From the NCBI GenBank assembly GCA_022560615.1, contig JADFSR010000004.1, positions 62,001-126,000 of the forward strand: a stretch of 64,000 bases of DNA, read 5' to 3'. Each line of letters starts with the position of its first letter. Within the stretch, counting starts at the first letter, position 1. The stretch is from Gemmatimonadota bacterium. Its GTDB lineage: Bacteria > Gemmatimonadota > Gemmatimonadetes > Longimicrobiales > Gaopeijiaceae. The notes under the pieces were generated by a model. That model was not told where the DNA came from. It was given only the letters and a program-made list of their open reading frames with translations, and made no database searches. Made by a program: the position numbers and the translations under genes. Below, piece after piece: positions 3,720 to 7,959 of this stretch.

Positions 3720-5135
3720 TCAGACCGCGCAGCACGAAAGCGTCGCGACATCCTTCTCGAAGGTCAGCGCCGCGAGCTTGATCCCTTCCGACAAGGTCAG
3801 ATAGGGGTGAAGCGTCGAGGTCAGGTCGTCGATCGTGAGGCCGAATCTCACCGCCAGCGTGGGTTCCATGATCATCTCACCGGCTTCCGCGGCCACGATG
3901 TGCGCACCCACGATGCGCCGCGTCGCGGCGTCGGCCACGAGCTTCACGAAGCCGCGCGTATCACGGGCGGCTAGGGCCCTCGGCACCTGTTCCAGGGGGA
4001 GCTTCGAGACGAGCGGTTCCATCCCGGACTCTCGGGCCTCTTGCTCGGTGAGGCCGACCGAAGCGACCGCTGGACTCGTGAACGTCACCCTCGGAAGCAC
4101 AGAGAGGTCGAGCTTCTTCGTTCCGCCCAAGGCGTTCTCCGCGGCCAGGCTCGCCGCGCGGGCGGCCACGTACACGTGCATCGGCCCGCCCGTGACGTCG
4201 CCCCCTGCGAAAACCCGTGGGTTGCTGGTCCGTAGCTCCGCGTCGACCACGATCTCGAGCGAAGGCCCGAGCTCCACGCCCGCGGTCTCGAGGCCTATGG
4301 CGTCCGTGTTGGGCCTGCGTCCGGCGGCCACCAGGATCTGGTCCGCCTCGAGCGATGTGGCTTCCGCATCTCCGGCACGGTAGTGGATCAGGCGTCCCGA
4401 GGCAGTCCTTTCGACGGACTCTAGCGTCACGTGGGTGGCCACTCCGATGCCCTCGTCGCGCAGGTGGCGCGTCAGCTCTGCGCTGACGTCCGGGTCCTCC
4501 GTCGACAAAACGCGCGAGCGAGCCAGGATCGTCACTCGTACGCCGAGGCGCGCGTACGCCTGCGCCAGCTCGACTCCGACCGACCCGGCGCCCAAGACGG
4601 CAAGCGAGCCGGGCAGCTCACCCAGGTCGAGCAGTGCGGTGCTGTCCAAATATCCCGCCCCGGCCAACCCCGGGACGTCGGGTGCCCACGGAGAGGAGCC
4701 GGTCGCGACGACAACGCGCTCGCCGGGCACCGGCGTGCCGTGCGACAGACGGACCCGGCCCTCCTCGTCCAGAACCCCTCGGCCTTCGATGAGTGTGATC
4801 TCCGGGTAGCCGCGCAGGACGTTCTCGTACTTCGCGGTTCGGAGCGCGGTCACCAGGTCGTCCTTTCCGGCCCGAATTCGCGCCCAGTCGACTGGCTCCT
4901 CAGATCGCGCCACACCGTCGAAGCCGTGATGGCTCTGCACGTGCCGTGCCTCGGCCGCGCGGATCACCGTCTTGGACGGGATGCAGCCGACGTTCACACA
5001 CGTACCGCCGATCGTTCCTTCGTTCACCATCGCCACGCGGGCACCGAGCTCAACCGCGCGAATGGCCGCTGCGAAGCCGGCCGAGCCACCGCCGAGCACG
5101 GCCAGGTCGTAGCTTCCCTGCGTGTCGGAGCTCAT
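3720..5135 (-). CDS. merA: Mercuric reductase MerA (no N-terminal HMA domain)
   Basis: A 471-residue flavoprotein disulfide reductase that reduces Hg(II) to Hg(0) with NADPH in the cytoplasm. It has the FAD motif GGGSAGFAAA, the redox-active pair C46/C51 in GTCVNVGCIPSK, the NAD(P) motif GAGSVGVELA, the FAD motif VFAGGDVTG, and the diagnostic C-terminal vicinal cysteines (C468-C469, SCCAV), which separate MerA from lipoamide dehydrogenases. The NmerA metal-binding domain of many MerA proteins is absent; the adjacent HMA gene may supply that function. I start at the ATG at 5135, which overlaps the upstream stop by one base (TGATG), rather than at the TTG one codon earlier. It is the last gene of the mercury operon and is convergent with the monooxygenase remnant. 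Confidence 0.95.
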   Translation of the reverse strand: MSSDTQGSYDLAVLGGGSAGFAAAIRAVELGARVAMVNEGTIGGTCVNVGCIPSKTVIRAAEARHVQSHHGFDGVARSEEPVDWARIRAGKDDLVTALRTAKYENVLRGYPEITLIEGRGVLDEEGRVRLSHGTPVPGERVVVATGSSPWAPDVPGLAGAGYLDSTALLDLGELPGSLAVLGAGSVGVELAQAYARLGVRVTILARSRVLSTEDPDVSAELTRHLRDEGIGVATHVTLESVERTASGRLIHYRAGDAEATSLEADQILVAAGRRPNTDAIGLETAGVELGPSLEIVVDAELRTSNPRVFAGGDVTGGPMHVYVAARAASLAAENALGGTKKLDLSVLPRVTFTSPAVASVGLTEQEARESGMEPLVSKLPLEQVPRALAARDTRGFVKLVADAATRRIVGAHIVAAEAGEMIMEPTLAVRFGLTIDDLTSTLHPYLTLSEGIKLAALTFEKDVATLSCCAV

Positions 5136-5575
5136 CAACTCGTTCCGCCGTTTCCACTCCCGCTCGGGTGCTCGTCGGCCTCTTCGTGCGACGTCGCATT
5201 CGAGTCCGCGTCGGCTCGAACCGTCCCACTGAAGTCCGTCATTCGATCGAGCTCGGCGAGAAACTCCTCCGGGGACGTCATCGTCGTGTCGAAGGTGACG
5301 AACCCCTCCGCACGGTCGTAAGAGAACACCGCTTCACGGACTCCCTCTACTCGTTCCACGGCCACCCGGGCCGCTGAGGCACAACCGTCTCAGGTCATGC
5401 CGGTGACGTCGAGCGCCACCGTGCGGTAGAGGCCCGTTGCCGCGGCCATTTCCGCGGGCATCTCTCCGTGGCCCAAAGCCTCGTGGTCCGTCGCCACGTC
5501 GCCGTGGCTGGGGATCTGCATCACGATCCCGACGCCGATCACGACGCCGACGGCTGTCCATTCCTTCCAACTCAT
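5135..5575 (-). CDS. Membrane-anchored MerP-like HMA protein, predicted selenoprotein (UxxC)
   Basis: The frame from ATG 5575 to TGA 5137-5135 is a 146-residue protein if the internal UGA at 5392-5390 is read through. Residues 5-21 form a membrane anchor. A His/acid-rich linker follows (SHGDVATDHEALGHGEM), then an HMA domain whose metal loop reads GMT-U62-DGC65-ASAARVAVERVEGV. In ordinary HMA proteins this is GMTCxxC, so UGA replaces the first cysteine only, and both flanks keep family sequence. A good Shine-Dalgarno (AGGAGAAG) precedes the ATG. The C-terminal tail is His/Glu/Gly-rich. It lies between merT and merA, the usual merP position, and overlaps merA. Inferred role: take Hg(II) in the periplasm with a selenol/thiol pair and pass it to MerT. 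A conventional call would give only a 76-residue fragment. Confidence 0.85.
5355..5392 (-). promoter_or_regulatory. UGA codon plus candidate bacterial SECIS hairpin
   Basis: On the minus strand the UGA (5392-5390) is followed by a stem-loop. Five perfect pairs (CGGCC with GGCCG) enclose the loop CGGGU at 5368-5364, and the stem extends by a G-U pair, one mismatch, and C-G and U-A pairs. The loop starts 21 nt after the UGA and its second base is G, within the spacing and loop pattern described for bacterial SECIS elements. GC-rich DNA forms such hairpins easily, so this is supportive rather than decisive. Confidence 0.55.
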
Positions 5576-5593: not shown

Positions 5594-5953
5594 CTAAAAA
5601 ACGAGTGTCTGCCAACGCGGAAACGTGGCCAAGACCACTGCCGCACCGGTCGCGATCCAAAGCACCACTTTCATGCGGCGGCGTACGTCGGGGTCTGCGC
5701 ACGGCTTGCCCGGGACGCAGGCGCTCTTCTCCTCTCGGTCGAGAAGCACGAAGCCCAGCACCAGGCACAGAGCGGTCGCGCCCAGGAAGTAGGGGCGTAA
5801 CGGCTCGAAGGCGGAGAGCCCAGCGCCCGAAACGCCGACGGTCACCGCGAGCACGGGCCCGGCACAGCAAAGCGCGGAGCCGGCTGCCGCGACGACCCCG
5901 CTTACTCCGGGCAACGCTGCCTTCATTGAATCCTTCAACTCGTCCTCCGGCAC
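5594..5953 (-). CDS. merT: Mercuric ion transporter MerT
   Basis: A 119-residue inner-membrane protein that moves Hg(II) from a periplasmic carrier to MerA. It has three hydrophobic segments (about 17-37, 54-72, 92-110). The first contains the vicinal cysteines C29-C30 (SALCCAGP), as in MerT. The loop after the second carries another pair, C79 and C85 (SACVPGKPC), matching the cytoplasmic cysteine pair of the family. The frame opens with GTG at 5953; an internal ATG at 5926 is an alternative start. It is the first gene after the GTAC-dyad promoter and is followed 18 bp later by the UGA-containing HMA gene. Confidence 0.92.
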   Translation of the reverse strand: MPEDELKDSMKAALPGVSGVVAAAGSALCCAGPVLAVTVGVSGAGLSAFEPLRPYFLGATALCLVLGFVLLDREEKSACVPGKPCADPDVRRRMKVVLWIATGAAVVLATFPRWQTLVF

Positions 5954-6002: not shown

Positions 6003-6034
6003 AACCTACACCCGGTACCCTAGTACAGGGTCAA
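6003..6034 (-). promoter_or_regulatory. mer promoter/operator for merT-HMA-merA
   Basis: Read on the minus strand: a -35 TTGACC (6034-6029), a 20-bp spacer and a -10 TAGGTT (6008-6003). The long spacer is the hallmark of MerR-activated promoters. The spacer carries the dyad GTAC-TAGG-GTAC (6026-6015), the same GTAC-N4-GTAC arrangement as the classical mer operator. The merR stop codon TGA lies inside the -35 hexamer. Confidence 0.85.
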
Positions 6035-6471
6035 GGGGAGGTTCGTTGCTCGGCGGACGCTTGGCGCTCTTCGAGCTCCTCGAGGATCGGGCAGTCGCTC
6101 GTGGGCTCGCGCGACTGGCATGCATCGACCAGGCGCTCCAGGGCCTTCTTCATGCGGCGCAGCTCAGTCAGCTTGTCGGCGACACTCGCGAGTTTCTCAC
6201 GGGCCCGGGCTTCCACGGTGCCGCACGCGGCGACTTCGTCGACGCGAAGCGCCAGTAGGTCCGCGATCTCGTCGAGAGTGAAGCCCAACCCCTGGGCTCG
6301 GCGGATGAACCGCAGCCGTCCTACCGACTCGAGCGGATAGTCCCGATACCCGGACGTGGTGCGCGGTGGCTCTGGAAGAAGACCCTTCCGCTCGTAAAAG
6401 CGCACGGTCTCGCGACCGACACCCGCGGCTTCGGCGAGCGCTCCTGTGGTAAGACCAGATTCAGCCGGCAT
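6031..6471 (-). CDS. merR: Mercury-responsive regulator MerR
   Basis: A 146-residue MerR-family activator. The N-terminus is the winged helix-turn-helix (LTTGALAEAAGVGRETVRFYERKGLL), followed by the wing GYRDYP and a long dimerisation helix. The three cysteines that bind Hg(II) in characterised MerR proteins (82, 117 and 126 in Tn501 MerR) are present at 83, 118 and 127, which argues for mercury rather than copper or zinc sensing. It sits co-directionally inside the cluster: it starts 3 bp after the secreted HMA gene, and its stop overlaps the -35 of the merT promoter. Both the upstream read-through promoter and its own target are therefore adjacent. Confidence 0.93.
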   Translation of the reverse strand: MPAESGLTTGALAEAAGVGRETVRFYERKGLLPEPPRTTSGYRDYPLESVGRLRFIRRAQGLGFTLDEIADLLALRVDEVAACGTVEARAREKLASVADKLTELRRMKKALERLVDACQSREPTSDCPILEELEERQASAEQRTSP

Positions 6472-6474
6472 GCC

Positions 6475-6978
6475 TCACGACTGACCGCCAACCACCGCAG
6501 TCACTTCGATCCGCTCCGGCGTCAGGTCGTCCTCATCGATCGCGACCTCTCCTTCGAGGATCACCGTGCCGCCCGCGCTATTGGACAGCCGCCGGTGGAC
6601 CTCACCGTCAGCCGTGACGGCGTAGGTAACTCCCGATCCAGGCACGATCGCCACCAGCGCTCCGGCCTGGATCTCGATGCGCGCCGAGAGCGTGAGCTTC
6701 GCTTCTCTCGGTGTGAAGCCCTGATGGCGGATCGTGCGACGCAGCTCTGCGATCGTCACCGTGTTCCCCGGTGCGAACCGGACACGAACCCGACCGTCGT
6801 TGAGACTCACTTCCGCGTTGTCGACGCCGTCCAGCTTCTCCACGGCCACGCGCACGGCGTGGGCGCACACGCTTCAGTCCATTCCGTAGATCGTCTGATC
6901 GACAGATCGAAGCTGAGCCTCGGCCGAGCCTATCGTCACCGCGGCGGCGACCAGCGCCAGGAGGGTAGATCTGAGCAT
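6475..6978 (-). CDS. Secreted MerP-like HMA protein, predicted selenoprotein (UxxC)
   Basis: With the UGA at 6876-6874 read through, the frame from ATG 6978 gives 167 residues. A Sec-type signal peptide (MLRSTLLALVAAAVTIGSAEA) is followed by an HMA domain with the metal loop GMD-U35-SV-C38-AHAVRVAVEKLDGV, a clear match to periplasmic MerP except that UGA stands for the first cysteine. The signal peptide lies upstream of the UGA and the domain core downstream, in one frame 34 codons apart, so a chance stop is unlikely. After the HMA domain (to about residue 75) comes an extra beta-rich region of about 85 residues that I do not recognise. An AGAGGA ribosome-binding site precedes the ATG. It lies 25 bp after the outer-membrane protein gene. 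A conventional call would give only a 131-residue leaderless fragment starting at GTG 6870. Confidence 0.87.
6841..6876 (-). promoter_or_regulatory. UGA codon plus candidate bacterial SECIS hairpin
   Basis: After the UGA (6876-6874) the minus strand folds into six perfect pairs (CCACGC with GCGTGG). The loop is CGUGC at 6856-6852, starting 17 nt after the UGA, with G as its second base. Beyond one C-C mismatch the stem extends by four further pairs, two of them G-U. Spacing and loop fit the bacterial SECIS pattern, and the loop resembles the one in the second HMA gene (both begin CG). Confidence 0.58.
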
Positions 6979-7003
6979 GAGGCTGTCCTCTGAGGATTCA
7001 GGA

Positions 7004-7873
7004 TCAGAACCAGAAGCTGGCGTTCACCGCCAAGCGGACTCCGTCGTCGCGTTGGTTTCCGTTCAACGACTGATAGAGCGGGAAAGCGGGGCCTCCCGCA
7101 AGCCCCCATGAGCCGTAGAGGCCCAGCAGCGTGAGTGCCACATAGAGCTGACGGCCTCCGCTATCGGAACGTCGAATGCCACCCACGGAGTCGCGGCCGA
7201 CGCGCTCCCCGACGACTTCCACGAACATGCGCCAGTCCGGGTGGGGATAGTCGGCTCGGAACGACGGCGGTCGGTAGCCGACTACCAGGCTCCCCATGGT
7301 CACGTCTCCCGCCCGGTGCTGGTCGCTTCCGGCGGATAAGGAGCGCCGATACGCACCGCCGAGCCAGACGTAGACCGCTCGGGACGCGTATCCGGTCACG
7401 ACCGAGCCGAAGAGCCCGGGCGCCGTCTCGAGGCCGTCGCGACGTGCGTCGGTGGGAACGTCCACCGCGAACCAAAGTGTCGTTTCCTGTCGGGTCCCCA
7501 CGCCTGTACCGCGCCGCTGAACCCGCCAGCCAACCATAATTTCAGCGTCCTGCGAAGCCGGCATCCGGATGAAGGCCCGCACCGCGGGGGCGTCGTCGTC
7601 GCGTGCCACGGGCAGGGGCAGCGACGCCGAGAGCTGAAGGTCTTCGGTGACCCCATAGCTGAGCATTGGGCGGAGCATGGCGGTCTGACCACCGTCGAAG
7701 AAGCGCCCCATTCCAGCGACGTCGAGGCTCCAGCCACCGCGTCCGAGCGTTGGAGTCGAGAGCCCGTATACGGGCCCGTGCCCTTGGGCCGTTAGAGGGG
7801 CCGCCACAGGGGCCGCTACAGGGAGAATGCTGACGGCCAGGCCGAAGCCGATCCCGACGACTGCCCTCGTCAC
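7004..7873 (-). CDS. Outer-membrane beta-barrel protein of the mercury cluster
   Basis: A 289-residue exported protein. It has a long hydrophobic signal region (residues 5-28) and then alternating amphipathic strands with many aromatic/glycine turns, ending in the C-terminal NASFWF, a phenylalanine-terminated beta-signal as recognised by the BAM machinery. No enzymatic motif is visible. It starts with GTG at 7873, about 55 bp after the -10 of the upstream promoter, and is followed by the secreted HMA gene, so it belongs to the mercury cluster. It could be a channel for mercury or another outer-membrane component; function is unknown. Confidence 0.7.
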   Translation of the reverse strand: MTRAVVGIGFGLAVSILPVAAPVAAPLTAQGHGPVYGLSTPTLGRGGWSLDVAGMGRFFDGGQTAMLRPMLSYGVTEDLQLSASLPLPVARDDDAPAVRAFIRMPASQDAEIMVGWRVQRRGTGVGTRQETTLWFAVDVPTDARRDGLETAPGLFGSVVTGYASRAVYVWLGGAYRRSLSAGSDQHRAGDVTMGSLVVGYRPPSFRADYPHPDWRMFVEVVGERVGRDSVGGIRRSDSGGRQLYVALTLLGLYGSWGLAGGPAFPLYQSLNGNQRDDGVRLAVNASFWF

Positions 7874-7927: not shown

Positions 7928-7959
7928 AAGGTAAGGGTTGGAGTGGGCTCCAATGTCAA
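7928..7959 (-). promoter_or_regulatory. MerR-family-type promoter upstream of the outer-membrane protein gene
   Basis: On the minus strand: -35 TTGACA (7959-7954), a 20-bp spacer, -10 TACCTT (7933-7928). The spacer contains a perfect inverted repeat TTGGAG-CCCA-CTCCAA (7953-7938) centred between the hexamers. Elongated spacers with such dyads are controlled by MerR-family activators. The dyad differs from the GTAC type at the merT promoter, so either the same MerR tolerates both or another family member acts here. Confidence 0.75.

Follow-up and report, generated by a model that had tools for sequence, protein, structure and literature searches.

Two HMA-domain genes interrupted by UGA, predicted to encode selenoproteins, in a mer operon of a Gemmatimonadota bacterium

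A close described counterpart of the proteins reported here is MerP (TIGR02052; 1afi and 1osd), a periplasmic HMA domain with a GMxCxxC loop that is encoded together with merT and merA. Mer and HMA proteins containing selenocysteine (Sec) are as such already known from surveys, as the initial annotation of this DNA had thought possible. The GOS survey lists a Sec-containing 'Mercuric transport protein MerP' (2 sequences from 1 sample, with 0 Cys homologues), in a table without motif, operon or organism, and it also has a 'Putative mercuric transport protein' among its selenoproteins (PMC2398784). Two curated families are comparable: NF041115 (UxxU_metal_bind metal-binding (seleno)protein), a small HMA-type selenoprotein, and NF045683 (MerT/CopZ fusion-like heavy metal transport selenoprotein), a selenoprotein of Mer type that combines MerT and HMA parts. 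Among the proteins listed in a 2026 review are the UxxU metal-binding NF041115, a selenoprotein of MerT type and a cation ATPase with Sec; for some Sec proteins the review considers that Sec may bind metal, and it calls for study of functions in detoxification (PMC13188914; see also PMC9312934). We found no report of the arrangement described below among open-access titles and abstracts on Sec together with a mer operon or with Gemmatimonadota; subscription papers lay outside this search.

The locus lies within a 64,000-nucleotide stretch of Gemmatimonadota DNA (the window) and is read from the minus strand in the order omp (barrel)–merP1(Sec)–merR–merT–merP2(Sec)–merA. Its features are as follows.

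7928–7959, minus: MerR-family-type promoter 5' of the barrel gene, TTGACA with GGAG-N4-CTCC in the spacer (consensus match only)
7004–7873, minus: gene for an outer-membrane 12-stranded beta-barrel, directly upstream of merP1 in 7 of 7 genomes examined
6475–6978, minus: merP1, signal peptide, HMA domain (GMD-Sec-SVC) and C-terminal five-stranded domain with a helix (OB-like order)
6874–6876, minus: in-frame UGA of merP1, residue 35, predicted Sec codon
6842–6866, minus: SECIS-like hairpin of merP1, 3 bp, internal loop, CCACGC-[CGUGC]-GCGUGG
6031–6471, minus: merR, mercury-type, with Cys83, Cys118 and Cys127 (spacing 35 and 9)
6003–6034, minus: merO-like promoter/operator 5' of merT, TTGACC-CTGTACTAGGGTACCGGGTG-TAGGTT, with a GTAC-N4-GTAC dyad (consensus match only)
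5594–5953, minus: merT, mercuric ion transporter with a Cys29-Cys30 pair
5135–5575, minus: merP2, N-terminal hydrophobic anchor and HMA domain (GMT-Sec-DGC)
5390–5392, minus: in-frame UGA of merP2, residue 62, predicted Sec codon
5358–5374, minus: SECIS-like hairpin of merP2, GCGGCC-[CGGGU]-GGCCGU
3720–5135, minus: merA, mercuric reductase without an N-terminal HMA domain, with C46xxxxC51 and a C-terminal CC

The two HMA proteins differ from MerP in the predicted Sec that takes the place of the first Cys, and MerP1 further has an additional domain at its C terminus and is linked to an outer-membrane barrel. Neither reaches the TIGR02052 cut-off of 92.55 (MerP1 35.2 bits, MerP2 37.3 bits). NF041115 has two Sec (UxxU), whereas MerP1 and MerP2 have one each (UxxC) and score 50.4 and 61.5 bits against a cut-off of 95. 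NF045683 is a fusion, whereas the MerT of the window is a separate gene product with Cys-Cys; against a cut-off of 375, MerP1 and MerP2 score 20–31 bits and MerT 55 bits. Because MerP1 and MerP2 both fall under the NCBIfam curated cut-offs, standard annotation probably truncates or skips such genes in Gemmatimonadota.

With the UGA taken as a residue, the merP1 frame encodes 167 amino acids, MLRSTLLALVAAAVTIGSAEAQLRSVDQTIYGMD-U-SVCAHAVRVAVEKL...VVGGQS, and is closed by a normal TGA. The UGA (6876-6874, residue 35) replaces the first Cys of CxxC in the HMA GMxCxxC motif, exactly as the initial annotation had claimed, and the core of the domain reads TIYGMD-U-SVCAHAVRVAVEKLDGV. At the N terminus, MLRSTLLALVAAAVTIGSAEA-Q, a hydrophobic stretch is followed by AEA-Q, by eye an apparent signal peptide. 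The Pfam HMA match covers residues 30–88 and spans the UGA (E = 1e-11). The gathering cut-off of HMA (PF00403), 24.8 bits, is exceeded by both MerP1 (45.3 bits) and MerP2 (36 bits). A ribosome-binding site, which had been called good, is indeed present 8–13 nt 5' of the ATG, but its sequence, AGAGGA, is only fair and not outstanding. The AlphaFold2 model of MerP1 has a mean pLDDT of 87. In this model, the HMA half resembles CopZ, ATP7B domains and MerP (1osd, 1afi), and the C-terminal ~75 residues form five strands and a helix in OB-fold order; structure comparison of the model returned no separate match for this C-terminal half.

The operon had been thought to hold one HMA selenoprotein. This is supported for merP1, but the count was wrong: merP2, 1.5 kb downstream of merP1, is a second such gene, with its UGA at the same position of the motif. 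The product consists of a hydrophobic N terminus, a linker and VTGMT-U-DGCASAARVAVERVEGV, and the Pfam HMA match covers residues 55–110. Pairwise dN/dS values for MerP2 are 0.10–0.24 upstream of the UGA, apart from a single value of 0.55, and 0.10–0.21 downstream of it; purifying selection thus acts on both sides of the codon, indicating that both are kept as protein. No other frame in the window stood out convincingly as interrupted by TGA in a crude scan based on third-position G+C alone, whose thresholds also missed both known cases.

In relatives, the codon at exactly this position is either UGA or one for Cys, which answers the check by homologue alignment proposed at the outset. Six MerP1 orthologues, the window included, have UGA at the same codon, five of them from Gemmatimonadota and one from Planctomycetota. 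Besides the window, these are L092 (WGEM01000585), L093 (JACQVF010000115), L095 (JACQHC010000131), L096 (bacterium HR33) and L094 (Planctomycetota KatS3mg102); the L092, L093 and L096 sequences are identical with the genome-search matches in G072, G055 and G133, and each is therefore counted once. The Opitutales orthologue (L097) reads GMD-C-APC, its Cys being coded by TGC. For merP2, UGA is found in 20 copies from 18 genomes of the phylum Gemmatimonadota, and four genomes (G065, G212, G133 and G055) have Cys at that codon. TGA matches in G082, G067 and G070 were considered as Sec codons and rejected, as they are ordinary end stops.

The genome to which the window belongs is 4.5 Mb in size and 99% complete. 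A search for sel genes, also suggested initially, found the following components, all over their curated cut-offs.

Contig C36: selA, 541 bits
Contig C38: selB, 333 bits
Contig C1 (L010 1501-2427): selD, 386 bits
Contig C15: tRNA-Sec, 66 bits, anticodon region CTTCAAAA

Absence of this machinery from a complete genome, which would have refuted the selenoprotein assignment, is thus not observed: the full set is present. The selD gene has a TGA in frame at the usual active site (GAG-U-ACK), from which SelD is predicted to be, in all probability, a selenoprotein itself. Across the relatives, selA is over its cut-off in all UGA-bearing genomes searched, the window's own included (G119 lay outside this search), and was not found in two Cys-only genomes, G065 (99% complete) and that of the Opitutales; G212, with a Cys-type MerP2, nevertheless has selA. 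selB is over its cut-off in most of the UGA-bearing genomes searched, the exceptions being three draft metagenome-assembled genomes (G060, G422 and G425).

Bacterial SECIS elements are hairpins just 3' of the UGA, with a G among the first two loop nucleotides and the loop 16–37 nt from the UGA. Both hairpins observed here fit this description, with loops at 17 nt (MerP1, CGUGC) and 21 nt (MerP2, CGGGU), in the absence of SelB-binding data. The merP1 hairpin begins 7 nt past the UGA and has its G at loop position 2. All of its cells (36/36) pair in four sequences, with one compensated pair, C-G to U-A in L092, where CAC to TAC (His to Tyr) is matched by GTG to GTA. This covariation alone, one compensated pair in four sequences, is not significant (117/500 shuffles). 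Synonymous sites within the hairpin are unusually conserved: among codons of invariant residues, 4/7 inside the hairpin are identical across six genomes, versus 2/15 outside. The Cys-type Opitutales MerP1 orthologue does not form this hairpin at the corresponding place. The merP2 hairpin, with loop CGGGU or CGUGU, has two compensated pairs in 16 distinct sequences, a value reached in 1/500 shuffles, and 95.8% of its cells are paired versus 27–71% in slid versions. Relatedness is not fully corrected for in these covariation controls. The merP2 stem overlaps a conserved protein stretch, and hairpin stems are partly constrained by protein sequence; both hairpins are also short, and their single-sequence folding energies are not exceptional.

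The criteria for a mer operon are met by a merA equivalog, merT and a MerR with three Hg-type cysteines. MerA is over the TIGR02053 cut-off (561 bits versus 454), and MerR, at 141 bits, is ~10 bits under that of TIGR02051 (150.85). The 35/9 spacing of the MerR cysteines is the same as in Tn501 MerR (Cys82, 117 and 126), and the GTAC-N4-GTAC core is that of the Tn501 operator. The whole operon order is repeated in L095 (JACQHC010000131), where merA is in pieces in the assembly. The GGAG-N4-CTCC dyad 5' of the barrel gene has counterparts in MerR-type promoters at L092 7827-7853 and at L061 ~16188 minus.

The barrel protein ends in WF, a type of ending typical of outer-membrane proteins. It has no Pfam match in a profile search and no match in a plasmid search. 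Its model contains ~12 strands and is closest to FapF (5o68) and a COG4313 channel (4rl8), with TM about 0.6–0.7; the 12-stranded fold is shared with these channels, but identity is 10–14% and, unlike theirs, the barrel gene is linked to that of a metal-binding protein. Passage of Hg(II) or some other ligand through the barrel is a guess made from gene linkage only. In Planctomycetota KatS3mg102 (L094 6352-8890), a heavy-metal P-type ATPase gene is found just upstream of the barrel–merP1 pair. It is frameshifted in the assembly at ~8150, and its early end was for this reason rejected as that of another Sec gene.

Could the merP1 UGA be a true stop, leaving a broken gene or one restarted at GTG 6870, whose product would lack the signal peptide and keep only half of the metal site? 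UGA does serve as a stop elsewhere in this genome, including at the end of merP1 itself, and a GTG is the second codon past it. However, in six orthologues the same UGA is flanked on both sides by the preserved signal peptide and HMA domain, relatives have Cys there, the genome has the Sec machinery and the hairpin is conserved. A stop or pseudogene was therefore rejected on the conservation of the UGA and the flanking protein, and we regard it as barely tenable. Sequencing or assembly error for TGC or TGT, conceivable in a draft assembly, deserves next to no credence: it is contradicted by relatives, since assemblies made independently by several projects, and spanning two phyla, show the identical codon, as does a second gene family. 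The same codon in six orthologues thus rules out chance or error as its source. The original proposal that merP1 is likely to encode a selenoprotein is strongly supported by UGA conservation, Cys counterparts, Sec machinery and hairpin. From sequence, without proteomic or selenium-labelling evidence, we infer that UGA almost certainly codes for Sec in both merP1 and merP2.

The specificity of MerP1 for Hg is less certain than its Sec, given the P-type ATPase beside the barrel–merP1 pair in the Planctomycetota relative, and judging by such neighbours MerP1 may not serve Hg in every genome. Both proteins could thus be selenoproteins while MerP1 and the barrel handle other soft metals (copper, silver or cadmium), standing beside mer by chance or as part of a general soft-metal defence. 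Many metals are bound by HMA domains, the MerR near the pair in L093 is without the first Hg cysteine, and the GGAG-N4-CTCC dyad of the barrel promoter differs from the GTAC-N4-GTAC before merT. What makes this unlikely, though it retains some weight, is that merR–merT–merP2–merA, with a three-cysteine MerR, directly follow the pair in the window and in L095, and that the MerR adjoining it in L092 has three cysteines and 69% identity to that of the window. Alternatively, Sec-x-x-Cys might be mainly a redox centre of the thioredoxin type (UxxC) that acts on disulfides or mercury–thiol adducts and is not a carrier, as known UxxC selenoproteins are mostly oxidoreductases (PMC2398784). This we consider improbable: the fold is HMA and not thioredoxin, the site is the MerP/CopZ metal loop GMxCxxC, and the operon is one for metal transport.

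We favour, as very probable, the reading in which merP1 encodes a selenoprotein, exported and with a soft-metal Sec-x-x-Cys site on an HMA domain, and MerP2 is made likewise; most likely, the two lie on a route for Hg to MerT and MerA. According to this model, the UGA at 6876-6874 would be decoded as Sec by SelB and tRNA-Sec, guided by the downstream hairpin, and MerP1 would be exported; MerP2, made in the same way, would probably be anchored in the inner membrane and face the periplasm. Hg(II) would reach the periplasm, perhaps via the adjacent outer-membrane barrel, and would be captured by the Sec/Cys site of MerP1 and next by MerP2, which would pass it to MerT. MerA would reduce it to Hg(0), with MerR in control. 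The sequence itself shows the UGA codons, how they are conserved, their Cys counterparts, the Sec machinery, the hairpins and the operon; that the protein as made contains Sec, that Hg is passed on in this order and that the barrel is its entry channel are all inferred here. So is the metal: the mer genes fit the Hg(II) named by the initial annotation, but it is deduced from neighbours and has not been shown. In the absence of metal data, binding of Hg(II) in transport to MerT and MerA is likely for MerP2 and fairly likely for MerP1 in this operon. Selenols have a lower pKa and a higher affinity for Hg than thiols, which offers a plain reason for Sec at an HMA metal site.

Selenium and mercury bind very tightly, and selenoproteins are usually said to fall victim to mercury. 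In the present case a single resistance operon appears to have evolved two mercury carriers with Sec at the metal site, in many genera, suggesting that cells use selenium purposefully to catch mercury. If true, this would be among the few cases of Sec as a metal ligand rather than a redox catalyst. We raise only as a tentative conjecture, one we would not yet rely on, that barrel, MerP1 (Sec-HMA and C-terminal domain) and anchored MerP2 form a dedicated selenium-based mercury capture line, which hands Hg(II) along selenol/thiol sites and on to MerT and MerA and in which selenium supply sets resistance. The system is testable, in that mercury resistance would be expected to depend on selB and selenium.

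Two further loci were observed. A more distant HMA protein with UGA, KMT-U-AGC, is encoded in G054 (L056 8843-9112, contig C368), adjoining merT- and merA-like genes; its codon suggests that there may be further Sec-HMA subfamilies. The window's genome holds a second cassette on contig C46 (L068 ~6022-7539, minus), in which a distantly related barrel (30% identity) is accompanied by an HMA protein of Cys type (CPFC). By its sequence this cassette is a putative Cys paralogue of the barrel–MerP1 pair; a merR (L068 8889-9203, plus) lies near it.
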